From assembly GCA_009909005.1 (NCBI GenBank), contig JAAAOG010000102.1:1-32860 (forward strand): 32,860 nucleotides of DNA. The letters run 5' to 3'. Positions 1,227 through 31,872 of the stretch are shown here, in pieces. Position numbers and translations under genes: made by a program. The notes below the pieces were generated by a model. That model was not told the origin of the DNA. It did no database searches and saw nothing but the letters and a program-made list of their open reading frames with translations. Position 1 is the first letter of the stretch. Each line of letters starts with the position of its first letter. The DNA is from Alphaproteobacteria bacterium. Lineage in GTDB: Bacteria; Pseudomonadota; Alphaproteobacteria; DSM-16000; Inquilinaceae.

Positions 1227-1474
1227 TTTCCGGACGGTCATGCGCGATTTCGTCATAGGCCAAAGGCTATTCGGCCGTTGTCTCTCGACGTCTCAGATTC
1301 GGGACGCATTCTGCCCTGATCACCGGCGCCATATCTCGTCGAGCTTCCACATCTAGCGATCTTCCGGACGCGACCCGCAAAAAATCGCGTCCCGATGGCG
1401 AGTCGGCCTTGCCAGCGACGGCCGCGACCGATCTAATGACGACGTGCAGCGATTCAGCTGGGAGCGCCGGACTC
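1227..1474. other. smc leader region with an inverted repeat
   Basis: Together with the terminator this makes the ~307-base gap between dsbA and smc. It holds a perfect 8-bp inverted repeat, GGACGCGA (1366-1373) and TCGCGTCC (1385-1392), separated by an A-rich 11-base loop; there is no T-tract after it, so it is more likely an operator or a leader hairpin than a terminator. I see no clear promoter hexamers. In-frame ATG codons at 1409 and 1436 would add 22 or 13 residues to SMC that do not look like family sequence. Confidence 0.4.
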
Positions 1475-5233
<3,759 letters not shown>

Positions 5234-6238: not shown

Positions 6239-6802
6239 ATGGTTTCCGATAGCGTTAACCCGGAAATTTCCACCCCAGGCGCAGCTGACCCCGAGTGGCA
6301 GGATCAGATGTCACTGAAAGAACTAGGGAATCGCCTGCAGCTTGTGCTGGATCATTTTCCGAACAGAAGATCGGCATCAAGCGTGGCGGGAATCTCCGTC
6401 GATCAGCTCAATGCTTATGTTAAAGGACGGAATTCTCCTCCTTTTTTAGTCGTGGCACGCCTGGCTTTGGCGGCGGGTGTCCGGCTCGACTGGCTCGCGA
6501 CCGGAGAGGGGTCTATGCACCCGAAGGCGCGGCAAGACGGGCAGGTCGCCCCGGTGCCAACATCCGATCTCTTCTATGATGAAGATCTCTTGATCGAGAT
6601 AATTGAATCAGGGGAAATATTCGTAAAACAAAACAATTTAAAAGTGCGAGATCCGCGGATCAAGGCGCGACTCATTGCCACGCTTTACCGCCATGCCTGC
6701 CGGCGCCGCCTGCTGGCAACGGGCGCCGAAGCGCGCCAGCTGCGACGCATTGCCGAATCCGATCTGGAAGCGATTGAAGAGCTCTTGCGGATCCTGGAAT
6801 AG
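6239..6802 (+). CDS. CI-repressor-like helix-turn-helix regulator
   Basis: A 187-residue protein. Residues about 29-91 match the N-terminal DNA-binding domain of phage CI-type repressors: L-G-N-R-L-Q-L-V-L, a helix-turn-helix around S-S-V-A-G-I-S-V-D-Q-L-N-A-Y-V-K-G-R, then A-L-A-A-G-V-R-L-D-W-L-A-T-G-E-G, the family's signature end. The C-terminal half is helical and charged, with no Ser/Lys LexA-type peptidase, so RecA-dependent self-cleavage is not expected. The start is uncertain: ATG 6239 has no strong Shine-Dalgarno, and ATG 6308 (M-S-L-K-E-L-G) with AGGA close upstream is an alternative that keeps the whole HTH. Codons at 6595-6645 are unusually A/T-rich compared with neighbours. It lies opposite the Mor-like gene, an arrangement like a small phage-type switch; the targets are unknown. 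Confidence 0.7.
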   Translation: MVSDSVNPEISTPGAADPEWQDQMSLKELGNRLQLVLDHFPNRRSASSVAGISVDQLNAYVKGRNSPPFLVVARLALAAGVRLDWLATGEGSMHPKARQDGQVAPVPTSDLFYDEDLLIEIIESGEIFVKQNNLKVRDPRIKARLIATLYRHACRRRLLATGAEARQLRRIAESDLEAIEELLRILE

Positions 6803-14694: not shown

Positions 14695-15051
14695 GTGCCG
14701 ACCGAGTTTCGCCATATCATCTTCACGCGGGAAGAACTGCTGGCGGCGATCAAAGGCTATCGCAAGCGGCGCCGCGATCCTCTTCCCGCTGGGTCCGTCG
14801 TCAATTTTTCGTTGGAGAAGGAGCCCTATCTGCACGCCGTTCTGCGGATCGCGCCGGATACGGGCGATGGCCCCGTCCGCTATACGGTCGAACGCGACGA
14901 ACTGGCCAACGCCTTGATCATGTATTGTATCGACTACCGCATCCCGATGCCGGTCGAATCCACCAAGTTCCTGCAGGTTTTTGGCGGCAGTGTCGGCTTG
15001 GTGATCACCAAGAACGTCGCGTCGGCGGAGATCGACAGCGTGGCGGAATGA
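14695..15051 (+). CDS. Small conserved-looking protein of unknown function
   Basis: A 118-residue soluble protein; GTG 14695 is preceded by AGAGGGA (14682-14688). It has no signal peptide or membrane segment. Visible pattern: F-R-H-I-I-F-T-R-E-E-L, a basic helix K-G-Y-R-K-R-R-R-D-P-L-P-A-G, strands carrying V-V-N-F-S-L and A-V-L-R-I-A, then A-N-A-L-I-M-Y-C-I-D-Y-R-I-P-M-P and a final V-G-L-V-I-T-K-N-V strand. I recall similar small proteins in other alphaproteobacteria but no assigned function. It stands alone on the plus strand, 143 bases after the peroxiredoxin and 240 bases before the 578-codon gene. Coding quality is good (balanced charged/hydrophobic pattern, high third-position GC). Confidence 0.7.
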   Translation: MPTEFRHIIFTREELLAAIKGYRKRRRDPLPAGSVVNFSLEKEPYLHAVLRIAPDTGDGPVRYTVERDELANALIMYCIDYRIPMPVESTKFLQVFGGSVGLVITKNVASAEIDSVAE

Positions 15052-15291
15052 GCGGCGCGGATCCTCAAGGCCGTACAGGCCCTCGCATCATCATGAAGAG
15101 TTTCACCACTGCGGTGCCGTGATCCCGGTGCGCATGGGATGCCTCTTCGCTGCGACCAGCAAGAGACCGCGAACAGCCGGACTGCGGGCGGTCTTCGACC
15201 GCTTCCTGTTGCGGAAGCCGGATTGATTTGAGCGTTCGGGCGGTCGCGGACAGAATGGCGAAGCTGCCCTTCGAACTGGAGTAGGGCGGGT

Positions 15292-17028
15292 ATGGACATC
15301 ACGATCCTGGGCCCGTCGGTCTGGCGCCCGGCCGTGGCCCTCGCCCTCGACAAGGCGCCGGAGGCGCCGCCGGCCGCCACCCGGGCATTGCTGCGTTTCG
15401 CGCATGACCGCCATGTCGGCCTCGCGCCGCTGCCGGCCGCGCGTCTGGCGGTCCTGCTGGCCGGCGGACAACGGCCGGAGGACGCCGATTTCGCCGATCC
15501 CACGGCAAGCGAGCCCTGGGCGACTCTTGTCGACCGCCTGGTCTCCGCGATCACGCCGGACGAAACCGGCGGTCACGCCGCCCGGCTCAGCCGGCCGCGC
15601 CGTGTGGCCGACCTACGCCTGGATTTGATCCCGGCCTGGAGCGTCGTGCGGATCGCCATGCCGGTGGTGACGCGCGCCTGCCGGCTGCTGGGCCGCGCTT
15701 ATCTGTTCGGCGGCCACGGCCATGCCGCCCCCCGAAACGCCGACCGGGCGCTCAAGCTCTACGAATTCGAGCAGCTCGAGCTGCTTCGCCATCTGGCAAC
15801 GTCCGACGACGAAATGCCGGAGCTGTTCTGGGACCTGGAAGGCCTCGCCGCCGGCTCCCTGACACGGGGGCCGACAGGCGGGCTGACACGCGGGTCGGCC
15901 TTGCCCGCTCCGCGCGCCGATCCGCGCCGCCAGCCCAGCCTTGACCGGAGCACATTCGCGCTGCTCTGGCGCCTTCGGCCGGAGCCGGACGGGGCGGCCG
16001 GAGGAGACCCTGCCCACACCCCGCCGACCGCGCGGCCGGCCCGTCGCCGGGAAGCGGACCGCTCGAAAGAGGAGGGGGTGGCCGGGGTCCATGGGCCGCC
16101 GCCGCGTCGGTGCCGGCGCGACGTCCTTCTCGTCGGGCTGATGCCCGATCCTGCACACGGCTCCGGCTGTGCGCTGGCGAAGGCCGTCTGGTTCGAGCTG
16201 GTGCTACGTCTCGGCCTCGTGCTGCAGGAGGCCGGGCTGGCGGGCAGTGACGCTCTCTGGATCGAGGCCGGCGGGCTCGGCGGCATCCGTGTCCACGATG
16301 CGGCACTCGACGCCACAGGCGACGGGGCGTGCGACGGCGCACGGCAGGCTTTGCTTGGACGGATCGGTGCGGTGCCGCACTCCCATCGCATGCAGGCGCT
16401 GATCGAGCGCGGCTGGATGCCTCGTTTTCTCGACCGGAAGACGGCGTTTGCCACGGCCTCGATGCTGCCGGACGCGACGAAGGCCGGCAGCGGCAGGGAC
16501 AGTGGCAGTGGCGAGGGCGAGGGCAGTGGCGAGGGCAGTGGCGAGGGCAGTGGCGAGGGCCCGCCGGACCGCTTCGACGCCTTCGGGGCCTGGATGGCCG
16601 ATGCGCTTGACCGGGTGTTGGCAGGGCGCCGGGCCGGTCAGCCGGAGGCTCATTCCGCGCATGAGCCCGATGCGGAGCCGGGGCCGGTCGCAGCGCTGTC
16701 CGACTACCGGCTGGTGCACGGCTTTGTCTGCTGGCCCTTTCTGCCGGCCGCGGATGACCGGCGCAGCGGCGACACCGATCTGGCACGGCTTGCCGAGCGG
16801 CTCGGTCTCGCGCGGGACCGGGGGCAGAGCCTGAGCCTGTTGCGCATTCCGGAAGGGCTGCGGGATCTGTCCGGATGGCGCCTGACGGCCGGCCGGCGCT
16901 GCGGCGCGCAGGTGATGCCCGAAGCCGGCGATGACGTCGATGCATCGGCGATACGGACCGGGACTCTGGCGGCCGCGCTGGTCGGTGCCTGGCTGGATGC
17001 GGCGTTGGAGGCGCTGTTCGGTGACTGA
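15292..17028 (+). CDS. Uncharacterised soluble protein, first gene of the three-gene operon
   Basis: A 578-residue protein that I do not recognise. GGAG at 15278-15281 supports ATG 15292. No signal peptide or membrane helix is seen, so it is probably cytoplasmic. Three ordered parts can be told apart: an N-terminal helical region (1-185) rich in Leu/Ala/Arg; an Arg/Pro/Gly-rich linker (~190-275); and a central piece (~278-350) with strand-helix-strand pattern (R-R-D-V-L-L-V-G-L-M-P-D-P-A-H-G-S-G, then a long helix, then A-L-W-I-E-A). A Ser/Gly/Glu repeat linker (bases 16487-16560) precedes a C-terminal part ending in an amphipathic helix. The central piece could be a degenerate von Willebrand A-like fold, D-P-A-H-G-S-G taking the place of D-x-S-x-S; this is a guess. 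The next gene follows after 111 bases. Confidence 0.7.
   Translation: MDITILGPSVWRPAVALALDKAPEAPPAATRALLRFAHDRHVGLAPLPAARLAVLLAGGQRPEDADFADPTASEPWATLVDRLVSAITPDETGGHAARLSRPRRVADLRLDLIPAWSVVRIAMPVVTRACRLLGRAYLFGGHGHAAPRNADRALKLYEFEQLELLRHLATSDDEMPELFWDLEGLAAGSLTRGPTGGLTRGSALPAPRADPRRQPSLDRSTFALLWRLRPEPDGAAGGDPAHTPPTARPARRREADRSKEEGVAGVHGPPPRRCRRDVLLVGLMPDPAHGSGCALAKAVWFELVLRLGLVLQEAGLAGSDALWIEAGGLGGIRVHDAALDATGDGACDGARQALLGRIGAVPHSHRMQALIERGWMPRFLDRKTAFATASMLPDATKAGSGRDSGSGEGEGSGEGSGEGSGEGPPDRFDAFGAWMADALDRVLAGRRAGQPEAHSAHEPDAEPGPVAALSDYRLVHGFVCWPFLPAADDRRSGDTDLARLAERLGLARDRGQSLSLLRIPEGLRDLSGWRLTAGRRCGAQVMPEAGDDVDASAIRTGTLAAALVGAWLDAALEALFGD
16507..16560 (+). repeat. 12-bp tandem repeat in the 578-codon gene
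   Basis: Three perfect tandem copies of AGTGGCGAGGGC at 16525-16560, plus a fourth copy at 16507-16518 separated by one GAGGGC half-unit. Each unit encodes Ser-Gly-Glu-Gly. Because the unit is a multiple of three, copy-number change would alter linker length without breaking the frame. Confidence 0.9.
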
Positions 17029-17139
17029 CCTGGATTGCCGGCTGATCCGACGATGCCTTGCCTGCGCGGCTTGTCTCGACGTGTTCGACGCCCATGACCG
17101 GTGATATGAAAAATTGCGGGCCCGAGGAGAGGGGGCCGG

Positions 17140-18666
17140 TTGAAGCGCGGCAAAGGCGGGTCGCCAATGTTGCCGTTCTTGTCCGGGAGAGCGAAGAGGC
17201 GGGTTTGGGACCTTTGTCTGGAGCCGGTTATGCAGCCTGATCCGGCGCGGGTGCGGGAAACGGGTGCGCGCTCGCATTTCCTGGCTGCCATTGCGGTTCC
17301 CGGAGGACGCCGGGACCGGGTCCTGCGGCAGGGCCTGCGGTGCGGCGCGGCTCTCGGTCTCGCAGCGGCGGGCGGATGGCTCGTCATGGCCGTCCGGGCG
17401 CGGCAGTTCGATCCGGACGGGCCGGGCCGGTTTCTGTACTGGCTGCACGACCATGTTGCCCTGCCGGCCTGGGGCCATGCCTGGACGGCGATCCATCCCT
17501 ATGGGGTAATCTGGCTGGCCGTGCTGCTCCTGGTTATCGGGATCGGCATGGCCGGCTGGCTGTTGGGCCTGGCGCCGGTCCGGGTCCTGCAGCGGCGCCT
17601 CACCCTGGCGCTCATCCGGCGGCCGCGCTGGCGCGCCTGGCTGGTCGGCTGGCACCGCCGCGCCATGCGGATCGGTCTCCGCCCGCTCCTGTTCGAGGAG
17701 GTGCTGCGGCACGATCGCCGGCTGGCCATGGACGTGCTGGCGGGCCTGCGGGACGGCGGGCAGGCGGCCGGCGCGCGGACCGCGGCCGCCCGGCGCCTGG
17801 CGGCTGCCACGCTCGTGCAGGCGGGGTTGGACGACCCCGCGGGCGCCGATGCCGAAGACATTTGCCCCGAAGCGGTCGAGCTGCTGGCTGAGGCGGCGGT
17901 TACCCTGGCCATCGAAGGCGCACCGGTCGGGGACAGCCTTCCCGATGCCGTTGCGCGCGACCTGACGAGTCTGCGGGACGCCCTGGCTGCCCGGGTGGTG
18001 GCGGCCTTGGATCGCGACGAGGTCGACCCCGGTCTTCACGCGCTGCCGCACGACGATTTCGACTGGCGCCGGCCGGCAGCCGAGATCCTTGTGCTGTTGT
18101 CGGATATGGAGATGCCGGATGGGCCGAACCGGCTCCCGATCCTGCGGCAGGTCGGAGACGCGGTGGATCGCCGGCTGACGGTCGTGGAAACGCTGCGCCA
18201 CAGCCTGGAACGGGACTCGGCCACGCCGCTGATCCGGACCGGGCTTGCCTCGGATCGGGTGCCGGCCGCCGATCCGGCCGCACGCCGGCTGGCGGTCCTG
18301 GCGGCGCTGCTGCTCGCCGATCGCGCCGCGGTCCCGCATCTCGGCATCGACAGCGTCGAGGCTTTCGATGCCCTGGCTCTCACGGCGGCGCTGCGGAGCG
18401 ACGGCGAGCGCGACAACCGGACCCGGCCGCTGATCGCCGCGGCCGGCGCTTTGAGCACCGGAGCCGTCGACACCGACATCTATCGCCTCGCCGCCCGTCT
18501 GGCAGCGCGGGAGGATCCGGCGTTCCGGGCGTTGTTTGCCGAGGCCGGCGACGTTCTCGGGCCCGGCGACCCGGCCTTGCTCCGCGCCGATATCGAGGCG
18601 CTGACCCTGGCCGCCGGCCGGGATGCCGGGCTTGAGACGCCGGATGGTCCGGGAGGGCGGTCGTGA
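17140..18666 (+). CDS. Uncharacterised inner-membrane protein, second gene of the three-gene operon
   Basis: A 508-residue protein I cannot assign. The TTG at 17140 has a strong Shine-Dalgarno (GAGGAGAGG, ~17123-17131) nine bases upstream; ATG 17167 and ATG 17230 are later options. Two membrane segments are clear, at about 66-86 (G-A-A-L-G-L-A-A-A-G-G-W-L-V) and 121-145 (I-W-L-A-V-L-L-L-V-I-G-I-G-M-A-G-W-L-L), with a ~35-residue loop between them that contains W-L-H-D-H. Basic residues before the first and after the second put both termini in the cytoplasm. The remaining ~360 residues are helical, Ala/Leu/Arg/Asp-rich, and look like a cytoplasmic helical-repeat domain. Its TGA overlaps the GTG start of the giant gene (GTGA), indicating translational coupling and probably a shared complex. 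Confidence 0.75.
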   Translation: MKRGKGGSPMLPFLSGRAKRRVWDLCLEPVMQPDPARVRETGARSHFLAAIAVPGGRRDRVLRQGLRCGAALGLAAAGGWLVMAVRARQFDPDGPGRFLYWLHDHVALPAWGHAWTAIHPYGVIWLAVLLLVIGIGMAGWLLGLAPVRVLQRRLTLALIRRPRWRAWLVGWHRRAMRIGLRPLLFEEVLRHDRRLAMDVLAGLRDGGQAAGARTAAARRLAAATLVQAGLDDPAGADAEDICPEAVELLAEAAVTLAIEGAPVGDSLPDAVARDLTSLRDALAARVVAALDRDEVDPGLHALPHDDFDWRRPAAEILVLLSDMEMPDGPNRLPILRQVGDAVDRRLTVVETLRHSLERDSATPLIRTGLASDRVPAADPAARRLAVLAALLLADRAAVPHLGIDSVEAFDALALTAALRSDGERDNRTRPLIAAAGALSTGAVDTDIYRLAARLAAREDPAFRALFAEAGDVLGPGDPALLRADIEALTLAAGRDAGLETPDGPGGRS

Positions 18667-21600
18667 GCGGCGGCTGGCAGGCCCAGCGCAACGCCCTGCG
18701 GCGCAGCCGGCGCCGTCGCCTCGCCGCGGCGCTCCGGCAGGTGCCGCTCGCCGGCCGGCTCGACCCCGCCCTGCTGTTGTTGGTTGTTCTGGGGCTCGGC
18801 CTTGCCGCGGGGACCGGCTGGCTGGCGGCGGAGGCCGTGGCCCGGCTGGGGCTGTTCGAGCCGCCGCTGCTGCGCGTGGTTCCCGACGATCGGTTGCTGG
18901 CCAATCTGCGCGACGGGCTCGAGGAAGACCCGCTGACCGCCGCGACCGTGCATGTCCGGGAGTCTGCGCTCTATCTGGCGCAGCAGGACGGGCGGCTTCA
19001 CCGCTACGATCTCGCGACGGGCCTCTGGTCGACCACCCGGCCTTTCGGGCCGGGCTCCGGGCTGGCGGGCCCGGTGACCGCGCTGCGCGCCGGCTGCGGC
19101 GGCGGCGCGGCCGGGAGCGACGCGGACGATTGCGCCGATCCGGAGGTCCTGTGGGCCATGGGGCGCGCAGGCGGCCTGCTCCGGCGCGATGCCGGCGGCT
19201 GGCGGGCCCTGATCCCGGACACCGCCTTTATCGGCCGTGACGGCCAGCCGGTCAGCCATGCCGCACTGACGACGGCGGCCGTCTCCGGCGACGGGCGCCG
19301 GCTTGCCGTCGGAACGCGGACCGGCGACCTCGGGCTCTTCGATATCGACCGCCAGGCCTGGACGCCCCTGCCCGCGGCGGCGGCCGCGATGCTGCCGGAG
19401 GCACCGATCGACCGGCTGCGCTGGTGGCGCGGGCAATTCTGGATCGGCAGCGCGGCCGGCCTGCAGCGCCTGCGCTGGGAAGACGGGATCCTCGCCCTGG
19501 CTCCGGTCGATGGCGTCGACGGGCCGGTGCGCGATCTCGACATCGACGGCCGCGGTGGTCTTATCGTGCTTGAGGATCGTCCGTGCACCAATGGCGCCCC
19601 GGGCTGTCGACGGCTGTCGCGGCTGGGCGAAGCTGGTGAGACGCCCAGCCGGCTGATCGACGAGACGGCGCTGTTCCCGGACCTGGACCTCGCCGGTCTG
19701 GTCATGGCCGGGCGCCAGGCCGGCACCGTCGTCGTGATGGGCCAGGCCGGTGTGCACCGCTACGACCTCGCCACCCATGGCTGGCGACGGCTCGACCGGC
19801 GCCCGGTCGAGATCGCCCATCGCGGAGCGGCGGACGGCGCGCTCTTCTTCGCCGCCGGTGCGGAGGTCCGGCGGGTGGCCGGCGGCGCTTTGGACGAGAT
19901 CGCCTGGACGTTGCCCGACGGCCGGCCGGTGCAACTGGCGGACGGGCCGGACGGCGCGCTCCTGGCGATGAGCGAGGCCGGCGCGATCCACGCCCTGTGG
20001 CCGGAGGGGGCGGTCGAGACCGTCTTCGATCCGGGCCGCACCGGTCTTGATCCGGGCGGCTTCGACCGGGCCGTCGCGTCGGGCGACCGGGTGCTGCTGC
20101 TCGGCTCCGGCGACGCCCTGCTGCACGACATTGTCCGCCGCACCTATCGCCGCATCCCGGCTCATCGGATTGCGCCCTGGCTCCGGGACCCCGAAACCCG
20201 GCTGCAGGGCTCCGGCGACCATGTCTTTGGCCTGGCCGGACGCGGCGACCGGGTCGAGATCGCGGCGTTCGACCTCGACAATGCCGCCGCGGCGGCGCTC
20301 GCTCCGTTAGGCGAGGGCGATGGCGAGGGGCTGCCGGGCCCGGTCACCGCCGTGCGGGACTGGAACGGGACCGGCCTCTCGCTGATCGACGGCGACGGCA
20401 CCGCGTGGCGGATCGGCGCCGAGGCTTCGGAGGCCTTGACCGGACCGGCCGCGCCGGACCTGGAGCTTGGCGGCCTCCGCGATGTCTGGGCCGGCGAGAG
20501 ACGGCTCTATGCGGCGACCGGAGTGGACCTGCATATCTATGACCTGGACAGGCGGGGCTGGGAGGCGCCGCTTTCCCCGCGCCCCGGGCTCGGCCCGATC
20601 GTCGCGTTGGCCGCGGGCGCGGGCGGGCCGCTCGGCCGCACCGCCGGGGGGCATCTGATTGCCGTCGATCCCCATGGCTTGCATATCGGCGGTCCCGACG
20701 GACTCCCCATGGCCCAGGCGGAGATCAGCGATGTCCGGCGCCATGGCGACGGCCTGTTTCTGGCGGGGGCCGGGCGCGTCGCGCGCTACGACATGGCGGC
20801 CCGGCGCGTCACCGACCGCTGGACGCTGGGCCGGGAGGGCGCGGTGCAGCTGGTCGCGGTGCTGGACGGAAGCCCGGTGTCGCTCTTTGCGGAGCGGCTG
20901 TGGATCGGCCGGCGCCCGGTGCCGGGGAGCGGCGATCCGGTCAGCCAGGCCTTCGTGCATGAGGAGCATCTCTGGACGGTCCGTCGTGCCGCCGGGGGCG
21001 GCGGGGCGGGCGGCGGGCATCGCTATCTCATGGGGCATCCGATCGGTGCGCCGCTCTCCGGCAGCCCGACCTGCCTGTTCCGGCAGCCGCGTACCGGGCC
21101 GGAGGCCACCCGGATCGTCCATGCGGCGGAGATCGGGCCGGACCGTCTGGCGGTCCTCACCAATGCCGGGCTGTGGGTCTACAGCGAGACGGGCCGGACC
21201 TGGCAGCGCATGATCCTTGCCGGCCGGCCCGACGAGGACATGCCGGCGCGTCCGACCGACCGGCTCTGGCGTCTCGGCGATGACCTGGCGCTGGTGCGCG
21301 GCGCGCCCGGCGCCCGGGCGATCGATCTGGTCGGCATCGCGGCGATCCCGAGCCCCGACAGTTGCGCGACCGGGCCGATGCGGGTGCCGGCCGCGCATAT
21401 CGGCGCGCGGGCCGTGGCGGTGGACCCCGGGAGCGGCACCCTGGCCTGGCTGGCGGCGGATGGCGCGGTCCGGCGCCGGCAGCACGGTGAGGTGCGGACC
21501 GTTCTGCCGCCATCGACACCGGGCCCGCGGGCCGGCGATTTGCGCCGGCTGTTCCTGAGGCCGCAGCGGCTCTACGCCACGACCGACGACGCCGTCTGGG

Positions 21601-24600
21601 CCTATGACCGAGTGCAGCGGACCTGGACGCGCCATGCGCTGGCGCTGAACGGCCGGACGCTCGCGGCCGCGGACGACCTTGTTCTGCATGCGGATGCCGA
21701 AGGCTCCCGGGAAACCGTGACCGCCACGCTTCCCGACGGGGGTGCGGCGGTCGGCACGCTCGACCCGGCGCCGGCGGCGGGGCCGGTCGCGCTGGAGCGG
21801 GTCGAGGTGCCGGACATCGCCCCATTCGGCGCGGGGGCGGCGGCGCTGATGGATGTCCAGCAGCGCAACGGGCTGTGGATGTTCCTGCTGCCCGACCGGC
21901 TGAAGGCCCTGCATCCCGACGGCCTGGTCTGGGCGCCCGACCTCATCTTCCCGGGGCCCGACGAGAGCCGGCGGCTGGGCACCATCGCCGGCCACCTGGT
22001 GGTCGAGGCGGATGAGGGGCGGACCTGGTGGATCGGCCGGCCGGGCGGTTTTCGGGGCTTCGGCGACAGCTTCCCGGCGGGTCGGGTCTTCCATCACTAC
22101 CGCCTGCAGCCGGAGGAACGGACGCTGCTCGCCGGCGACCCCGCGATCGGGGTGGTGCGCCTGCGGCCCGACGGCACGCGGCTGACCTGTCCGCTCGGCG
22201 GCGAGACCCTGGTCTGCGCGCCGCCCGCCGGCCCCGACATCCCATCCGACCACGACGGCGGGCCGGGCGCCTCCGCCCCGGGCGAGGGGCTGCCGGCGGA
22301 TACCGGAGAGGTCCTGGTTCCGGGTGCGCCTCTCGACACGAGCTGGCTCGACTGGGAGCGCGAGACCCGGCGGTTCCGCCTGCGCACCACGGCGGGCCAA
22401 GTGAGTCTGGCGCCGGCGGACCTGATCCGCGAGGGGCGGCTGATCTTCGGCGTGCCGGGCCGGGTGCTGGCCGACCGGCCCGATCTGCTGCACCACGCCA
22501 ATCCGCATGGGGTCTGGACGTTCGCCGCCTCGGCGCTCGATCTCGACAGCGCCGATATGCTGGTCCGGCTGACCGACCTCGGCGAACCGGTGGCGATGGC
22601 GCATGACGCCGTTGTGACCGCCACGGGCTGGCTGCCGCCCGGCCGCGACGCGGTGGTGCCGGGTCCGGCACCGCGGCGCCTGCGCCTCGGCGACGCGGTG
22701 CTGGAGGAGGATATCCGGGCCCGGCGGGTGCACGGCCGGATGACCGGCGAGGGGGAGGCGGAGGGCGTCCCGGCCTTCGCACCGGAGGGCGGCTTTGCCT
22801 GGGATATCCGCCGCGGCCTCGCCTTCGAGGACGGGCAGCTGGTGCTGGAGACGGCCGCCGGCCGCGTGCCGACCGACGCCCTGCGCCGGCAACCCCCGCC
22901 GACAGCCGGGACGCCGGAGGCGGAGCCCGGGACCCTGGTCGACAGCCCCCGCCGGCGCTGGCAGCGCAGCGAGGCCGGTGTCGCGATCAGCCGGCGGGGC
23001 GATCCGTCCGGCCTCGCCCTCGCCCTCGCCCTCGACCTCGACCGTGAGAATGGGCTCGGCTTTGCGGACGACCGGCTGGTGAGTGCCGCGGCGCATGATG
23101 GGCGATTGATGCTCCTGACGGAGGCGGCACTGATCGAGGCCCCGCGCGCCGCCGCCCTGTCCGGCGACACCGCCATCCGCCGCCCGCCGGAGCCGGCCGG
23201 GACGCGTCTGGCGGCGCTCCCCGGCCCGGATGGTGTGACCCGGCTCTATGCGTCCGGCCCCGGCGAGACGCGCGTCTGGTCCGCCGAGGCCGGCCGGTTC
23301 GCGCCGGTGCCGGCTGAGGAGGACCCGACCCGCCGGCGCCTGCTCGCCGAGACCGGGCGGCTGCGCGTCAGCCTGGCGGAGGGCCGGATCGAGACGGACC
23401 TGCGCCTGATCGACCCGGAGACGGGAGAGGCGCGCTGGCGGCCGATCGCGCTCGAGGACGGCCGCTTCGCCTTCGATCGGGTGACGGCCGTCGCGACGAC
23501 GCCGGCCCATGTCTTCGTCGGCAGCCCGGCCGGCCTTCAGGTCTATGCCCGCGGGGCCGGCTTCGCCCTCGGCGCCATGGTCCGGCTGACGGATCTGCCG
23601 TCCGGCCCCGACGGCGTGCCCGACCCCGGCGCTGCGCGGCTTGCGGTGCCGGAGGGCGATGCCGGGACAGTCCGGATCGATCTGCCGGGACGCTGCCTGG
23701 CGACGGCCGACGGCGCAGCCTTCCGCCCCTGTCCGGAGGCCGTCGCCACGGCGCCGGCGGCGCGGGGAAGCGGGCCGCTCTGGCGCTGGCACCGCGATCC
23801 GGAAGAGGGGCCCGTGGGCCGTTATCGTGATCCCGAGGGCCGGCCGTTCGGCCCGCCGGTCCGTCTCCTCGACGGCCGCTTTCCGCATGACCGGCTGCAC
23901 GACGTCCTTGCCTGCGGCGACCGCTCCGCGGCGATCTGGCAGGATGGCCGTCTGTCGCTGCATCGCGGACCGCGCCTGTCGCTGCGGCCGGGGATGGCCG
24001 TTTTCGACCGGGGCGGGTCCCGGCCGGAGGCCCTGCTTTGCCGGCGCGCGCCGGCCGCCGGCCCGGGCAGCCCGCCCGGGGCCGGGCTCTATGCGCGCTT
24101 CGCCGACGGCAGCCTGGCGCGCCTCGCCGCCGACGGGCCGGTGCCCGTTGCACCGGAGCAGGCGGCGCGGCTCGATCCTCCCACGGATCAGCGGCTGGTG
24201 TTCGCGCGCGGCCGGCTGCGGCTGCCGGCGGCGGAGGCTTCGGCGTCCCGGCGCTTCCAGCACCGCGGAGAGGACGGAGGCTGGCAGGACCTGCGCTGGT
24301 CCGGCGACCGGCTGGCGATCGACCGGCCGGAGGCCATCGCCTATGGCCATGGCCGGGTCTGGCTGGCGACGGCGGACGGGCTGGTGGCGCTGCGGCTGCA
24401 GCGCGGGACCGGGCTGCGCCTCGACCCCGAGACCATGCGGCGGGTGGCGTTGCCAAGCGCCGGGTCCTGCCGGGTGAGCGATCTGCGGATTCCGGAGCCG
24501 GGGACGGCGATCCTGCGCTGCAACGGCTCCAGCGATGCCGTGTTCCGGGTGTCGTTGACCGAGGCGGGCGGGGTGCAGCGGCTCGACGCCGATCCCTTCG

Positions 24601-25823
24601 CCGGGACGGTGCTCATCACGCCCGAGCGCCCGGGCGACTGGCAATGGACGCTGGACGATCGCCGGGAGGGCAGGCCGGGGAACGTCGCCATCACGCATCG
24701 GGGGGAGGCCGTCGACCTGGCCCGTGGCCGCTTCGACTTCGACGGGATCGTCAGCCTTGCCGCGCCGGACGGCGGCGGTCTCCATGCCGCGACCGCAGCC
24801 GGTCGGTGGGTCCGGGCGGCGGATGGGGATTTCTCGCTGCCGGCCCTGCACCGGCCGCAGGCCGGCAACGCCGTGGCGGCGGTCAGCCGGGTGACTGTCG
24901 TGCGGCGCGATGGAGAGAGGCGGCTTTGCCTCTCGGGGGCCGGCGGAGAGGCGGTGCCGGTCGACGCCTCGGGGGACATCGGCGGGCGCCTCCAGGGCTG
25001 CCCGGACGATCTCGGCAGCGACGGGCTCTGGGCCTATGCGCAGTCGCCGGACGGCGGGCTGGAGATCACCGCCGCGGGCCGGGCCGGCCGCTCGGCGGAA
25101 CGGCGGCTGGTTGCGGGGCGTTTCTCCGACGGCCGGGCGACAGGGCTGCCGGTGCCCGTCGGGTCGGGCGAAGGTCCGGCGGAAACGCTGGTGCCGACGG
25201 CCGCCGGCGTGCTGGTCTTCGGGGCGGAGGGCCGCCCGGCAGGGCTCTACGCGCCGCCATTTCCGGGGCTGGCGGAAGCAGCGGTGCCGCGCGCCGTCGC
25301 TGCACTGCCCGGCGAGGGGCCCGTCTATCCGGCGGACAGCGGCCTGCGCGCCCTTGAGAGCGGCCGGCCGATCGCCTGTCCCCGGCTTGCGGCCCTGGCC
25401 GCGTCCCTGCCGCCCGACGCGACGGTCCGCGAGCTTGCCCCCGCGCCGGACGGCCGGCTGCGGGTGGCCTGGCAGCGGCCGGGAAGCCACCGGGCGGCGT
25501 GGGCGCTGGCCGGCTGTGCGACCGGCGGCCCGCCCGATCTCCGCACGATCCGGCTGGATGCGAGCCAGTGGCGGCACTTCGTCGCGAACCGGGAGGATTG
25601 GGGCGATCCGCCGGCCGGTCTGGCGGTGTCGATCGATCCGCGGCGGGTCACCATCCGCTCGGCCGGCGGCATCATCGCCGTGGATGTGCCCGGAGCACGA
25701 CCCCTGCTGGCCGTCCTGCCGGCCGGACGGACGCTCTATCTGGTGACGCCGGAGGACATCCACGCCCTGGCTCTGCCGACGGCCCTGGTGGCGACCTTCC
25801 GGACGGCGGCCGCTCCGCCATGA
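18663..25823 (+). CDS. Giant membrane-anchored multi-beta-propeller-like protein (2386 aa)
   Basis: An uninterrupted 7.16-kb gene. GGGAGGG (18651-18657) precedes the GTG at 18663. An Arg-rich N-terminus (R-R-S-R-R-R-R) followed by one hydrophobic helix (residues ~35-57) predicts a signal anchor with the remaining ~2325 residues in the periplasm. Many strand-rich repeats follow, of the kind L-Y-x-A-x-x-x-G-x-x-x-Y-D-L-x-x-x-x-W, for example around residues 103-122, 365-380 and 628-645, resembling Reg_prop/PQQ/WD-type propeller blades. From ~1225 on, a second motif recurs with W near its start, then G-R-F-x-x-D-R and V-x-x-A-T-x-x-G-L (near 1227, 1434, 1591, 1706, 1872, 1990). At 40-50 residues per blade this would make several propellers. 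No catalytic motif is recognisable, so a scaffold, sensor or binding role is inferred. The stop overlaps the gluQ start (ATGA). Confidence 0.85.
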   Translation: MSGGWQAQRNALRRSRRRRLAAALRQVPLAGRLDPALLLLVVLGLGLAAGTGWLAAEAVARLGLFEPPLLRVVPDDRLLANLRDGLEEDPLTAATVHVRESALYLAQQDGRLHRYDLATGLWSTTRPFGPGSGLAGPVTALRAGCGGGAAGSDADDCADPEVLWAMGRAGGLLRRDAGGWRALIPDTAFIGRDGQPVSHAALTTAAVSGDGRRLAVGTRTGDLGLFDIDRQAWTPLPAAAAAMLPEAPIDRLRWWRGQFWIGSAAGLQRLRWEDGILALAPVDGVDGPVRDLDIDGRGGLIVLEDRPCTNGAPGCRRLSRLGEAGETPSRLIDETALFPDLDLAGLVMAGRQAGTVVVMGQAGVHRYDLATHGWRRLDRRPVEIAHRGAADGALFFAAGAEVRRVAGGALDEIAWTLPDGRPVQLADGPDGALLAMSEAGAIHALWPEGAVETVFDPGRTGLDPGGFDRAVASGDRVLLLGSGDALLHDIVRRTYRRIPAHRIAPWLRDPETRLQGSGDHVFGLAGRGDRVEIAAFDLDNAAAAALAPLGEGDGEGLPGPVTAVRDWNGTGLSLIDGDGTAWRIGAEASEALTGPAAPDLELGGLRDVWAGERRLYAATGVDLHIYDLDRRGWEAPLSPRPGLGPIVALAAGAGGPLGRTAGGHLIAVDPHGLHIGGPDGLPMAQAEISDVRRHGDGLFLAGAGRVARYDMAARRVTDRWTLGREGAVQLVAVLDGSPVSLFAERLWIGRRPVPGSGDPVSQAFVHEEHLWTVRRAAGGGGAGGGHRYLMGHPIGAPLSGSPTCLFRQPRTGPEATRIVHAAEIGPDRLAVLTNAGLWVYSETGRTWQRMILAGRPDEDMPARPTDRLWRLGDDLALVRGAPGARAIDLVGIAAIPSPDSCATGPMRVPAAHIGARAVAVDPGSGTLAWLAADGAVRRRQHGEVRTVLPPSTPGPRAGDLRRLFLRPQRLYATTDDAVWAYDRVQRTWTRHALALNGRTLAAADDLVLHADAEGSRETVTATLPDGGAAVGTLDPAPAAGPVALERVEVPDIAPFGAGAAALMDVQQRNGLWMFLLPDRLKALHPDGLVWAPDLIFPGPDESRRLGTIAGHLVVEADEGRTWWIGRPGGFRGFGDSFPAGRVFHHYRLQPEERTLLAGDPAIGVVRLRPDGTRLTCPLGGETLVCAPPAGPDIPSDHDGGPGASAPGEGLPADTGEVLVPGAPLDTSWLDWERETRRFRLRTTAGQVSLAPADLIREGRLIFGVPGRVLADRPDLLHHANPHGVWTFAASALDLDSADMLVRLTDLGEPVAMAHDAVVTATGWLPPGRDAVVPGPAPRRLRLGDAVLEEDIRARRVHGRMTGEGEAEGVPAFAPEGGFAWDIRRGLAFEDGQLVLETAAGRVPTDALRRQPPPTAGTPEAEPGTLVDSPRRRWQRSEAGVAISRRGDPSGLALALALDLDRENGLGFADDRLVSAAAHDGRLMLLTEAALIEAPRAAALSGDTAIRRPPEPAGTRLAALPGPDGVTRLYASGPGETRVWSAEAGRFAPVPAEEDPTRRRLLAETGRLRVSLAEGRIETDLRLIDPETGEARWRPIALEDGRFAFDRVTAVATTPAHVFVGSPAGLQVYARGAGFALGAMVRLTDLPSGPDGVPDPGAARLAVPEGDAGTVRIDLPGRCLATADGAAFRPCPEAVATAPAARGSGPLWRWHRDPEEGPVGRYRDPEGRPFGPPVRLLDGRFPHDRLHDVLACGDRSAAIWQDGRLSLHRGPRLSLRPGMAVFDRGGSRPEALLCRRAPAAGPGSPPGAGLYARFADGSLARLAADGPVPVAPEQAARLDPPTDQRLVFARGRLRLPAAEASASRRFQHRGEDGGWQDLRWSGDRLAIDRPEAIAYGHGRVWLATADGLVALRLQRGTGLRLDPETMRRVALPSAGSCRVSDLRIPEPGTAILRCNGSSDAVFRVSLTEAGGVQRLDADPFAGTVLITPERPGDWQWTLDDRREGRPGNVAITHRGEAVDLARGRFDFDGIVSLAAPDGGGLHAATAAGRWVRAADGDFSLPALHRPQAGNAVAAVSRVTVVRRDGERRLCLSGAGGEAVPVDASGDIGGRLQGCPDDLGSDGLWAYAQSPDGGLEITAAGRAGRSAERRLVAGRFSDGRATGLPVPVGSGEGPAETLVPTAAGVLVFGAEGRPAGLYAPPFPGLAEAAVPRAVAALPGEGPVYPADSGLRALESGRPIACPRLAALAASLPPDATVRELAPAPDGRLRVAWQRPGSHRAAWALAGCATGGPPDLRTIRLDASQWRHFVANREDWGDPPAGLAVSIDPRRVTIRSAGGIIAVDVPGARPLLAVLPAGRTLYLVTPEDIHALALPTALVATFRTAAAPP

Positions 25824-27671: not shown

Positions 27672-29170
27672 GCCTCGGCGATCCGGGTCATGGCGAAGAT
27701 CTGCCGCTGGTACGGCTCCAGCCGGACATAGAGGCCCTGGCCCGACATGGGATCGCCGTCGCGTTCGTAGACGGCGTCGGACAGGCGGTCGGCCAGCTGC
27801 CAGCGGCGCCCGGCAATGCCGTGGAAGTGCAGGGGCAGGTTCGCTTCCGAAACGGTGGCCGCCATGTTGACGACCACCAGGTCGCGGTCGCCCTCCGCCG
27901 TTTCCCAGAGAAAGGCGTAGAGGTTGCGGTGGGTGTCATTGCCCGGCCAGCCATGGGTCTCGACATGCCGCCAGGTGCCCTGGCCGACCGCCGAGTCGTT
28001 CAGCGCGAGAAAGAGACGGTCGAAGAACGCCAGCTCGTCCGGGTCCGGCTCCTCCGCCTGCCGACGAGCGAGGTGTATCGAGTGCTGCCATTGCCGCGCC
28101 TCGGTCTGGCCGTCATGGATCAGCCGGGCGCCGGGCAGGGCGGTGATCAGAACGGTGGCGGCGCGGCGGCGCTCGGCGTGCGGAATGGCGGCGGCGGCCC
28201 GCGGCTCGTCATGGTTCTCCAAAAACTGCACCGACCGGCTGAGGACCTCGCGGCTGAGGAAATGGCCGCGGGCGGCAGCCGGATCGCCATGAACCAGCGT
28301 GTCATAGAGCGACTTGTTGTAGGTGTAGTCGAAGCCCAGCAGCTGCAGGCGCCATTCCAGCCCCCAATAAGTCTCGGCGATGAAGCGGAAACCCGGATAG
28401 AGGGCCCGCACCTCGTCGATGGCGTCCGGCCAGAACTCGCCCTCGGCATTGCCGTCCGGCAGGTGCCCCCAGGTCCGCTCGAAAATCTCCTTCAGGACCA
28501 GCATCGCCATGTCGCAGCGCAGGCCGTCGCACTGGTCGGCAATGCGCACCAGCGTGTCCGTCATGCGGTCGCGGGTTTCCCGGCGCCGGTAGTCGAGCTG
28601 GAAGGTATCGATCCAGCCGGGGAAATAGGGGTCGCGCCCGAAGGCGATGACATGGCCGTCCTGGGCGGCATAATTGGCCGGGTCGGCTTCGGCCTGCTCC
28701 GGCGACCCGTGGACATAGAGCTCGGGATGTGCGGTGACCCAGGCATGGTCGCGGGCGGTGTGGTTCGGGACGAAGTCGAGAATCAGGCCGATGCCGGAGG
28801 CGTGCAGCCGCTGCCGCAGGTCGGTCAGGGCATCGGGGCCGCCGAACGCGTCCGGAACGGCATAGTCGGCGACGGCATAGGGCGAGCCGCAGACATCGTC
28901 CCGCGTCCAGTCGGGCAGGACCGAAGGGTAGTGCCGGACAAAGACGGGCTCCTCCGCCGACAGCCGCCGGCCGATCTGCCCGGTGGTCCAGGCGCCCATC
29001 AGCCAGATGGCATGGTAGCCGGCCCGCGCCCAGCCCTCCACGACGCTGGCCGGGACATCGGCCAGTGTGGCGTCATCGCGATCGAGATGGCGTGCCGTCC
29101 GCTGCACCAGCTGACGCGCATTGACCTCGAAGATCAGGGGATGCGGGATGACGGAAAAGGGAGCTTTCAT
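27668..29170 (-). CDS. GH13 family alpha-amylase/alpha-glucosidase-type enzyme
   Basis: A 500-residue glycoside hydrolase family 13 protein without a signal peptide, so cytoplasmic. The conserved regions are present: region I D132-F-V-P-N136-H (metal/active site), region II G-L-R-C-D220 (nucleophile), region III F-I-A-E266-T-Y-W (acid/base), and region IV E-N-H-D321-E-P-R (transition-state Asp). A beta-sandwich C-domain follows. The N-terminal F-E-V-N-A-R-Q and the G-x-x-A-I-W-L-M-G-A-W segments resemble the sucrose-phosphorylase-like/maltogenic subgroups rather than extracellular amylases, but substrate and hydrolase-versus-transferase activity cannot be read here. It is the first gene of a two-gene operon with the aldo/keto reductase. 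No other glycogen or trehalose genes are in the window. Confidence 0.92.
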   Translation of the reverse strand: MKAPFSVIPHPLIFEVNARQLVQRTARHLDRDDATLADVPASVVEGWARAGYHAIWLMGAWTTGQIGRRLSAEEPVFVRHYPSVLPDWTRDDVCGSPYAVADYAVPDAFGGPDALTDLRQRLHASGIGLILDFVPNHTARDHAWVTAHPELYVHGSPEQAEADPANYAAQDGHVIAFGRDPYFPGWIDTFQLDYRRRETRDRMTDTLVRIADQCDGLRCDMAMLVLKEIFERTWGHLPDGNAEGEFWPDAIDEVRALYPGFRFIAETYWGLEWRLQLLGFDYTYNKSLYDTLVHGDPAAARGHFLSREVLSRSVQFLENHDEPRAAAAIPHAERRRAATVLITALPGARLIHDGQTEARQWQHSIHLARRQAEEPDPDELAFFDRLFLALNDSAVGQGTWRHVETHGWPGNDTHRNLYAFLWETAEGDRDLVVVNMAATVSEANLPLHFHGIAGRRWQLADRLSDAVYERDGDPMSGQGLYVRLEPYQRQIFAMTRIAEA

Positions 29171-29360
29171 GGCTGGTACCGTCGCCGTATATGTCGAAGC
29201 CGTCCTCGGCGTATCGGGTGTGCCGCACGGCGGTGCCCGATCGCAGCCGATCCGGGCGCGGCAGTATGGTCCAGTTCAGCCAATGGCGGCAAGCGAGGCG
29301 CAGAGAGGCCCGCGCGAGACGGCAGGGCGGACTCCGGAGAATGAAGGGCCCCTTTTCTCA

Positions 29361-29714
29361 ATGATCGAGTCCTGCCGTCGAGACTGTCGCCCGGCCGTTC
29401 GGCTTTTCCTCCTGCTCGGTGCTCTGGCCGTTTCCAACCAGGCCGGGGCGCAGGCGGATCGCTATTACCAGTTCGCCAACACCCGATCCTATCTGGCGGC
29501 TTCGGACACCATGCGCACCGGCTATGTCGCCGGCCTGATGGATGCCGCCCTGGCCTATGGCGCGCTTCCGGATGCGACGGCATCCTGCCTGGCGGTGATG
29601 CGCCTGCGGGAGATCCGCTCCGGGTTCGACCGATGGCTGCGAAACCATCCCGCGGAATGGCGGTTTTCCCTGCCGTCGAACTTTACAATCGCGATGCGCG
29701 GTGTTTGCGAATAG
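29361..29714 (+). CDS. Small secreted protein, Rap1a/Tai-like
   Basis: A 117-residue protein. ATG 29361 opens a signal peptide (R-R-D-C-R-P-A-V-R, then L-F-L-L-L-G-A-L-A-V, cleavage near A-G-A-Q-A); the frame is open further upstream to 29121 but that part is not protein-like. The mature part has Y-V-A-G-L-M-D-A-A-L, C76, then helical L-R-E-I-R-S-G-F-D-R-W-L-R-N-H-P-A-E-W-R, and ends A-M-R-G-V-C116-E. This layout (G-Y-V-x-G-x-x-D ... C ... L-x-x-H-P ... A-x-x-x-x-C) resembles the Rap1a/Tai family, known as periplasmic immunity proteins to type VI amidase effectors. The match is by eye and moderate; C76 and C116 may form a disulfide. No effector gene is adjacent. It diverges from the GH13 gene. 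Confidence 0.55.
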   Translation: MIESCRRDCRPAVRLFLLLGALAVSNQAGAQADRYYQFANTRSYLAASDTMRTGYVAGLMDAALAYGALPDATASCLAVMRLREIRSGFDRWLRNHPAEWRFSLPSNFTIAMRGVCE

Positions 29715-31026: not shown

Positions 31027-31872
31027 GTGGCGGGAAAGGGGGCCTGCGTGTCGACGGCTGGACGACGGCTCATCGGCGTGGCGTCGGTGGTGCTGCTTTT
31101 CGGGGGGGAGGCCGCCGCGCAGGACGTCGGCACGCCGGCCCTCCTGCCGCACCGTGCCGTCTACGAACTGCGGCTGGACAGCGTGGCCGACCGCTCGCAG
31201 ATCGTCGCGGCCGGTGGCGACATGGCCGTGTCCTGGGAAGCCTCGTGCGAGGGCTGGACCATCGACCAGCGCTATCGGCTCGCCTTTACCTATGCCGAGG
31301 GCGGCGATGTCGAGCTGGTGACGACCTACGCGTCCTGGGAATCGCGGGACGGCGGGAGCTTCAGCTTTACCAGCCGGACGACGCTGAACGGCTTCGTCGA
31401 AGAGGAAATCCGCGGCCATGCGGCGCTGACGCCGGAGGGCGGCTCGGCGCATTACCGCCTGCCGGCCGAACGCGACCAGGCGCTGCCGGCGGGGACCTAT
31501 TTCCCCACCGGCCATACCCGGGCCCTGCTGCGCCGGGCCGAGGCGGGGGCCGCCGCCTTCACGGCGCCGCTGTTCGACGGCACCCGCGCCGACGGGCTGA
31601 CCGAAGTGAGTGCCGCAATCGGCAGCGCGCCCGCCGGCGGGGACCGGCCCGCACTGCAGGAGAGGCCGGCCATTCTCGAGGGCCGCGCCTTCTGGCCGGT
31701 GCAGCTGGCCTTTTTCGACCCGGATCAGGCCGATCCCGAGCCGGACCATGAAGTCGGCTTCCGGCTCTATCGCGGCGGCATTGTCGACGGGCTGCTGATC
31801 AACTACGGTGATTTCGTGCTGCGCGGTCGCGCCGCCGCCATCGAAGCCCTGCCGCTGCCGGACGATTGCTGA
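31027..31872 (+). CDS. eipB: EipB-like periplasmic envelope-integrity protein (DUF1849)
   Basis: A 281-residue exported protein. GTG 31027 follows a very purine-rich Shine-Dalgarno (GGAGGGGAGGGG, ~31012-31023). A signal peptide is visible (T-A-G-R-R-L-I-G-V-A-S-V-V-L-L-F, cleavage near E-A-A-A-Q-D). The mature protein begins L-L-P-H-R-A-V-Y-E-L-R-L, then a run of beta strands with W-E-A-S-C74-E-G-W-T-I-D-Q-R, and closes with N-Y-G-D-F-V-L-R-G ... D-D-C281 at the very end. These are hallmarks of DUF1849/EipB, a beta-spiral periplasmic protein conserved in alphaproteobacteria; in Brucella the two equivalent cysteines (69 and 278) form a disulfide and the protein supports envelope integrity. Here C74 and the terminal C281 would do the same, a potential client of a DsbA-type oxidase. 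Confidence 0.9.
   Translation: MAGKGACVSTAGRRLIGVASVVLLFGGEAAAQDVGTPALLPHRAVYELRLDSVADRSQIVAAGGDMAVSWEASCEGWTIDQRYRLAFTYAEGGDVELVTTYASWESRDGGSFSFTSRTTLNGFVEEEIRGHAALTPEGGSAHYRLPAERDQALPAGTYFPTGHTRALLRRAEAGAAAFTAPLFDGTRADGLTEVSAAIGSAPAGGDRPALQERPAILEGRAFWPVQLAFFDPDQADPEPDHEVGFRLYRGGIVDGLLINYGDFVLRGRAAAIEALPLPDDC

Follow-up and report, generated by a model that had tools for sequence, protein, structure and literature searches.

The question raised by the locus considered here is whether three long reading frames form a system of their own or are part of a larger one. The window, meaning the whole stretch of 32,860 nucleotides that was analysed, is contig JAAAOG010000102.1 of assembly GCA_009909005.1, from an alphaproteobacterium of the family Inquilinaceae whose genome is termed the source genome (G000) below. 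Its plus strand encodes proteins A, B and C, which a first-pass annotation had taken for a three-gene operon of unknown function, recognising none of them as part of a named system. Comparison with relatives gives another answer. The three genes are probably the survivors of a trans-envelope MoxR-vWA machine, the intact form of which is an operon of 10-11 genes. The best reading of the window locus is an orphaned B-C half, together with a clipped A, of this wider MoxR-vWA trans-envelope operon.

The three frames and the operon of their relatives

The frames were confirmed on one strand and at the stated coordinates, A and B being 111 bases apart and B and C overlapping by four (Table 1). The GTG start of C shares the bases GTGA with the stop of B, a purine-rich stretch precedes the TTG of B at 17140, and the first residues of A, read from its ATG, align with those of its homologue in a relative from the same family (G002). 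Third-position GC is 0.83-0.88 across the three frames, and long antisense frames are also present (16204-18339 and 20307-25763) in a region of 72-77% GC. Judged by sequence comparison, A, B and C are more than chance frames, because homologues stand in the same order in the family relative (C with 285 and 230 bits over two long segments, A with 68 bits, B with 40 bits) and C keeps 61 of the 64 columns conserved in other members. Identity to these homologues is 29-30% over the two segments of C (expectation values, E, of 2e-79 and 6e-63), 39-40% over 81 amino acids (aa) for B (E 3e-6) and 26% for A (E 1e-14), whose homologue adjoins a MoxR gene. As first proposed, none of the three belongs to a named family. 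Pfam searches (to E 10) returned sub-cut-off matches only, three for A, none for B and two for C, and NCBIfam searches (to E 1) returned a single one, for A.

In intact loci, one strand carries the order MoxR1-DUF58-vWA1-vWA2-X-MoxR-A-D-E-B-C, the MoxR before A being of the bpMoxR class. The locus of the family relative, over the 35 kb examined, has DUF58, vWA1, vWA2, X, MoxR, A, D, E, B and C in this order on one strand. Its DUF58 match reaches 50 bits, vWA1 is a membrane vWA protein with a Pfam VWA_2 match below the cut-off, and vWA2, likewise in the membrane, has vWA matches at two sites (43 bits). X is a frame of 368 aa, D a coiled-coil protein of 681 aa and E a membrane protein of 171 aa, while nine frames without Pfam matches lie downstream of C. 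The MoxR scores 177.1 bits (cut-off 27) against PF20030 (bpMoxR), the best of the 16 families listed, which is described as the 'MoxR domain in the MoxR-vWA-beta-propeller ternary systems'. At the P-loop, GXXXTAKS, the 32 intact bpMoxR copies read TAKS in 24 cases, TGKS in six and VAKS in two; this region is missing in the window.

A tblastn search of C against 72,556 plasmid records gave two matches, Paracoccus aminovorans p_IV and Paracoccus versutus pBEN. Both are megaplasmids typed as conjugative and carry the same ten genes in the same order as the family relative; B, E and X went unseen by tblastn alone and were read from the frames between matched genes. For the starts chosen, 4-base overlaps occur at seven of the nine junctions in P. 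aminovorans. Additionally, a second MoxR directly precedes DUF58 in 19 of the 20 loci with DUF58, scoring 17-32 bits against the bpMoxR-clade model; in the two examined, P. aminovorans (177 bits to AAA_3) and A. brasilense, it is an AAA_3 MoxR. MoxR, DUF58 and vWA genes are adjacent in intact relatives, and none of the three is intact at the window locus. By gene order, A, B and C are not a self-contained system but members of a single ordered operon. The earlier proposal of one operon, and of one likely trans-envelope assembly, agrees with this conserved order; the idea of a complete three-gene unit gives way to an operon of 10-11 genes, whose MoxR ATPases, DUF58 and vWA proteins are recognisable.

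The breadth of the operon was assessed by scanning genome contigs with three MoxR sequences, which yielded 36 loci, one of them (L018) that of the family relative. Ten family hidden Markov models (HMMs) were built from 3-4 sequences each (the family relative, the two Paracoccus loci and the window), and their matches in L018 do not count as independent evidence. Two pairs of loci, L041/L043 and L047/L051, are near-duplicates, L048 and L049 come from one metagenome-assembled genome (MAG), and several loci end early. The models detected MoxR in 36 loci, A in 33, D in 31, vWA2 in 28, C in 24, vWA1 in 23, B in 22, DUF58 in 20, X in 16 and E in seven; the counts for E and X are probably too low because both are short and divergent. 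Order and strand have no exception among the best matches, and in the 21 loci with both B and C, B precedes C. Whether the genes occur independently received a divided answer. All 24 C-bearing loci carry A, so that C without A was found in none of the 36. Nine A-bearing loci are without C; five of them end too soon to tell (L019, L025, L033, L042, L048), and L021, L024, L028 and L032 have MoxR-A-D with no detectable B or C, at least 5 kb having been read beyond D. MoxR-A-D looks like the core and B-C like an addition, because these four A loci are sufficiently long and have no C. As a separate observation, L021:8935-15073 (a Holophagae MAG) and L032:8944-15072 (Acanthopleuribacter) hold compact MoxR-A-D clusters with flanking frames of the size of X and E, after which comes a frame of about 1060-1072 aa.

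According to record titles, A-bearing loci occur in Alpha- and Gammaproteobacteria, Acidobacteria, Chloroflexi (Oscillochloris), Planctomicrobium, Opitutia, Aminicenantes and a cyanobacterial MAG, and short contigs of Latescibacterota and Zixibacteriota showed only MoxR and vWA2. Searches with A and B in 61 genomes (the source genome and 60 relatives) matched only the source genome, once each, and the family relative, where both lie in one place. Clear matches to C among 385 genomes of the class were confined to the same two; this search scored three candidates per genome, may have missed copies, and left uncounted a third match of 64 residues (E 3.5e-4). In the order of A. canadense, C was found in three of 82 genomes, all already known as full loci (seven matches, four of them short and uncounted). 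When genome contigs were scanned with C alone, 34 pattern matches were obtained, none of them a relative. The operon is rare in the samples searched and scattered over several phyla.

Losses at the window locus

Just upstream of A, the sequence HHEEFHHCGAVIPVRMGCLFAATSKRPRTAGLRAVFDRFLLR is what is left of the motor. It is 50% identical (21 of 42 residues) to residues 153-194 of the MoxR of the family relative (tblastn E 4e-7 at a database size of 4 Mb; blastn 34 of 37 bases) and matches the MoxR family HMM with E 7.8e-11, in the expected place and on the expected strand. The remnant keeps 14 of 20 conserved columns, and the worst of 32 intact relatives keeps 16; for this count 32 of 39 copies were retained, the window, L018, L043, L051, L048 and two fragments below 250 aa being dropped. 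The asparagine of the ATN motif (sensor 1) is among the conserved positions lost. Protein A is clipped as well. Its missing block corresponds to columns 412-447 of the alignment (A7), is ungapped in all 31 other A proteins and bears the motif IR.TR..ED..D.L.SE...P.....DRLLN.G.LVR. Overall, A keeps 27 of 33 family-conserved columns, four of the six lost positions being gaps.

No convincing copy of the motor or of D turned up elsewhere in the source genome. The sole other match to the bpMoxR model has 42 bits, scores 36 bits against the clade HMM (members score 221-495) and lies beside a weak DUF58 match. Nothing resembles D beyond two weak matches (E 1.8e-4 and 5.7e-4), and the A-B gap holds no convincing remnant of D or E. 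Relocated genes were considered and set aside: the D matches are weak, none of the three VWA_2 loci matches vWA1, one of them matches vWA2 only weakly (45 bits), and a MoxR-DUF58 pair on another contig bears a weak relation to the operon. A look for an empty site beside gluQ in 12 relatives was uninformative, because the other window flank genes tested are not near gluQ there. Three things are read directly from sequence comparison: that the gene order is conserved, that the motor is of the bpMoxR class, and that genes have been lost at the locus. On this footing the window copy is a deletion derivative in which motor, scaffold and half the operon have been lost at the locus.

Such losses might mean that the locus is decaying debris only, with no present function. 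MoxR is a scrap, D, E, X, DUF58 and the vWA genes are missing from the locus, and A has lost its block, all of which fits this explanation. Nevertheless, it is judged unlikely, considering that three frames stay open over 10 kb and that C (61 of 64) and B (11 of 12) keep nearly all conserved positions, whereas the MoxR scrap has lost six of 20. Retention in B and C falls within the range of copies with a motor, counted after the near-duplicates L018, L043, L051 and L048 (where present) had been dropped; low C retention in L036 and L022 is accompanied by many gaps, and both have split C frames. B and C are not visibly decayed, be it through selection or through recency of the loss. The selection that had been claimed for all three genes is supported for C and B and less so for A, with its conserved block gone.

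Table 1. Features at the locus and, in the last five rows, other frames of the window
Feature	Positions	Strand	Description
Remnant of bpMoxR-type AAA+ ATPase	15089-15214	+	42 codons of about 340; just upstream of A; enclosing frame 15005-15226
Protein A	15292-17028	+	578 aa, ATG start; putative MoxR partner; helical N-terminal half, divergent vWA-like C-terminal half
In-frame loss in A	16087-16092, junction about 16089/16090	+	36 residues; block just before the vWA-like domain
A-B gap	17029-17139	+	111 bases; site of genes D and E in intact loci
Protein B	17140-18666	+	508 aa, TTG start; membrane protein
Protein C	18663-25823	+	2386 aa, GTG start; N-terminal membrane anchor, tandem beta-propellers, predicted periplasmic
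Frame between peroxiredoxin gene and MoxR remnant	14695-15051	+	118 aa; no Pfam or NCBIfam match
SMC-type protein	1409-5233	+	1274 aa; SMC_N, 188 bits; overlapped by an antisense 1107-aa frame without Pfam matches
Helix-turn-helix frame	6239-6802	+	187 aa; phage CI-repressor-like, 24.7 bits (cut-off 22)
Frame with Rap1a-immunity-like match	29121-29714	+	weak, sub-cut-off
EipB-like protein	31027-31872	+	227 bits

Protein architecture, proposed mechanism and possible role

The A protein of A. brasilense was modelled with 30 relatives (mean predicted local distance difference test score, pLDDT, 83.7; predicted template modelling score, pTM, 0.83). VIA-align placed vWA folds over residues 296-567 of 567 (Z up to 8.7, root-mean-square deviation 4.2 over 163 residues), vWA-type domains making up nearly all of its 50 rows. 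In Foldseek, the best vWA entry is the NorQ-NorD VWA complex (9qh6, prob 0.89), the vWA protein 6fpy reaches prob 0.97, and many of the remaining rows are vWA proteins; a capsid entry at rank 1, and carboxylase and XPD entries within the top ten, were discounted as weak. The MIDAS metal site of vWA domains is a DxSxS motif following the first strand. This motif is absent from all 32 A proteins in the 60 columns after the lost block, which hold that strand. None of the 32 has any Pfam match at E 0.01, no propeller was seen in A, and its one hydrophobic stretch in a Kyte-Doolittle plot (threshold 1.6, residues 293-311) lies within the vWA-like part, with no obvious membrane helix. The model thus lends moderate support to the view that the C-terminal half of the A homologue is a vWA fold without the metal-site motif.

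For B, the same plot gives one clear helix in the window copy (123-141) and two in that of the family relative; the second helix is weaker than the first-pass annotation implied. A short loop, Y..HD...LP....W, is conserved between two hydrophobic stretches. In the model of C, helices at 5-24 and 35-62 and a short one at 79-86 precede almost nothing but strands. Foldseek matched this part to tandem propellers in the PDB (E down to 5e-17, with low TM-scores), including periplasmic sensor domains of Bacteroides two-component proteins. Residues 1-800 of C are strongly predicted to comprise a membrane helix and beta-propellers, and to this extent the propeller-like nature and, in outline, the localisation first suggested for C stand (one N-terminal helix, the one at 35-62, and all-beta sequence thereafter). 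Its 18 cysteines, several in close pairs, would suit a periplasmic protein.

A mechanism can be proposed for the intact machine. In the cytoplasm, the vWA half of A would engage a MoxR hexamer, by analogy with NorD and NorQ. The coiled-coil D, together with the membrane proteins E and B, would transmit the ATP-driven movement through the inner membrane to C, which would serve as a giant propeller scaffold in the periplasm and bind an envelope target. DUF58, vWA1 and vWA2 with MoxR1 may form a Bat-like membrane module assisting the machine, whose task would be to remodel or gate some complex of the envelope. At the window locus, where the motor is gone, this ATP-driven step cannot work as in the relatives. 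B and C, and possibly A, may persist there without a motor, serving as a scaffold or binding protein in the periplasm, or they may represent an early stage of loss. That the lost A block contacts the motor or D is a guess; it would explain the joint loss of block, motor and scaffold. In its intact form the operon unites, in one conserved order, a Bat-like vWA module with a motor of the bpMoxR class and with a periplasmic protein that is about 2700 residues long. Among its hosts are the tractable bacteria Rhodobacter capsulatus (DSM 1710), Azospirillum and Paracoccus. Two questions hereby become testable, namely how MoxR-vWA machines act across the envelope and whether phage defence is among their tasks. 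Moreover, the window copy is a natural deletion experiment on which parts can outlive the motor.

The machine could instead have a housekeeping role, as a Bat- or NorQD-type chaperone of maturation that assembles a particular envelope complex or inserts its cofactor with C as scaffold, in which case the source genome would have lost the client or replaced the machine. The MoxR-DUF58-vWA arrangement resembles known MoxR operons, the A model matches the NorD VWA domain among others, and NorQ-NorD inserts iron into nitric oxide reductase (PMC9976466). The operon is rare in the sampled genomes and scattered across several phyla, unlike a housekeeping factor, and strongly divergent (window proteins share 17-33% identity with other members for A and 19-35% for C); furthermore, no constant client gene was noticed downstream of C, where no systematic search was made. 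Such a role is consequently regarded as doubtful.

Several points weigh against the reading of the window as the remainder of a trans-envelope machine. In the Foldseek search with A, rank 1 is the parvovirus capsid entry (E 3.8e-3), the NorQ-NorD complex at rank 2 has a weak E of 5.2e-3, and the Z of 8.7 is just above the stated background of VIA-align. The C model covers residues 1-800, and the packing of its propellers is not to be read because the TM-scores are low and pTM is 0.40. The PF20030 cut-off is unspecific: matches in 12 of 14 control genomes exceed it, as does the 42-bit match of the source genome. The search for X and E covered selected loci of the source genome. Conservation of C may reflect a recent loss rather than a motor-free job, and a full-text search (titles and abstract starts, with most subscription journals outside it) found no paper on this operon. 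Finally, the assembly of the source genome is in 230 contigs and 96% complete, and assembly error could mimic some of the losses. An artefact in which an intact operon has been partly misjoined or collapsed in the contig would suit this fragmentation and the concentration of several losses in one place. It is nonetheless very improbable: assembly error could not mimic the MoxR scrap because the scrap has diverged at conserved positions and is no clean copy, the A frame is open through its junction, and the rest of the genome yielded neither an intact bpMoxR nor an intact D.

The neighbourhood of C offers a link to defence. In P. aminovorans, C is followed by a 617-aa gene and then by SngA, SngB and SngC (294, 567 and 864 bits with PADLOC models), the genes of Shango, shown experimentally to be an anti-phage system in Pseudomonas aeruginosa (PMC10250203). 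Complete SngABC adjoins C at L014:25509-33298, with matching flanks in L015, L082, L083 and L084. These five loci belong to P. aminovorans, P. versutus, P. lutimaris, a Rhodobacterales MAG and R. capsulatus, all Rhodobacterales; Shango was called by PADLOC models in the first and by homology in the other four. It shares the strand of the operon in P. versutus, P. lutimaris and the MAG and lies on the opposite strand in R. capsulatus. Twelve downstream flanks were read for at least 5 kb (L080, which ends about 1.3 kb after C, was left out), and seven of them have no Shango: A. canadense, Thalassovita, Planctomicrobium, an Alteromonadaceae MAG, L087, the family relative and the window. Shango as a constant part of the system was rejected on this count. 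For SngABC, the source genome has only a 20-bit BrxC/D match of 65 residues, below the cut-off; among 28 genomes behind loci that were searched for the BrxC/D family, a full-length match is present in six, in three of them beside the operon. The 617-aa protein has a weak TerB_N match, and it or a homologue is present in all five Shango loci.

On these grounds the intact operon might itself be an anti-phage defence, with C sensing or binding at the envelope, MoxR-A-D remodelling, and Shango as a DNA-acting arm or companion; the window copy would then be a discarded defence locus. The Shango neighbours speak for this, as do the motor's match to a Pfam family named for MoxR-vWA-beta-propeller systems, which are predicted conflict systems (PMC7159879), the patchy presence of C in the class and in the other order searched, and the two copies on megaplasmids typed as conjugative. 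It is to be set against this that all five Shango neighbours are from Rhodobacterales, that the other seven flanks have none and one of the five lies on the opposite strand, that PADLOC gave no match for the DUF58, vWA2, MoxR, A and D of P. aminovorans (Shango models included), and that defence islands gather unrelated systems. The Shango link is real in one lineage and at most suggestive for the role of the operon. MoxR-vWA systems of other kinds are mentioned in the context of defence by a BREX survey (PMC12839542) and likewise by a CRISPR survey (PMC10910872). Defence remains a plausible role, and the specific scheme above is a possibility that we would not favour. More speculatively, and with rather little probability, the operon may stand for an undescribed, horizontally spread class of trans-envelope AAA+ machine, in which a giant periplasmic propeller protein, driven by a cytoplasmic MoxR-vWA motor, does the sensing or capturing for a system directed against phages or plasmids that is coupled to Shango in Rhodobacterales; the window would then be a motor-free descendant whose periplasmic half is kept for its own sake.

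Comparison with known systems

Bat-type operons consist of MoxR, DUF58 and vWA genes, and the operon resembles them in having MoxR1 (AAA_3), DUF58 and membrane vWA proteins in a row. In the present operon a second motor, of the bpMoxR class, and A, D, E, B and C come next; to our knowledge, Bat operons contain none of these. As for Shango, it adjoins C in five relatives, and its genes are not in the window.

The MoxR-vWA propeller systems were predicted to be conflict systems by comparative genomics in Kaur et al. 2020, who, in the portions of the paper considered, term them enigmatic and without a conventional effector and report that metal-site aspartates are missing in some vWA domains of propeller and FtsH systems (PMC7159879). 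DUF58 does not occur as a word in the main text of that paper (PMC7159879). The present operon is like these ternary systems in its bpMoxR motor, mostly with the P-loop variant GXXXTAKS that they often have, in a vWA-like partner without an evident metal site, in the presence of propellers and in a membrane-spanning protein. It differs in that their vWA domain strictly goes with a C-terminal propeller of about four blades, whereas A, if it is the vWA component, ends with its vWA-like domain and the propellers are on the separate, giant, membrane-anchored C; the DUF58-vWA1-vWA2-MoxR1 module is an addition here. The bpX domains of Pfam, accessory domains of those systems, went unmatched at E 0.01; the proteins scanned were 32 of A, 25 of D, 23 of C and 36 of B, X or E. 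Their third component has a variable N-terminus, a membrane segment, tetratricopeptide repeats (TPR) and a propeller; C shows a membrane helix and propellers, and no TPR match was obtained in 23 members, most of which are cut at the end of the locus. The operon as such was found nowhere described, and some of its loci may be among the supplementary gene lists of Kaur et al.

A mechanistic parallel is drawn here with NorQ-NorD, CbbQ-CbbO and RavA-ViaA, in which a hexameric MoxR works with a vWA partner bearing a variable N-terminal domain; one NorD binds the NorQ hexamer, and a vWA finger is thought to plug the pore (PMC9976466). Unlike NorD, in which the MIDAS motif is required for activity (PMC9976466), A shows no DxSxS after the first strand. 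Moreover, NorQD is described, as far as the part of the account consulted goes (PMC9976466), without a giant periplasmic partner, the place that C would take in the machine proposed here.

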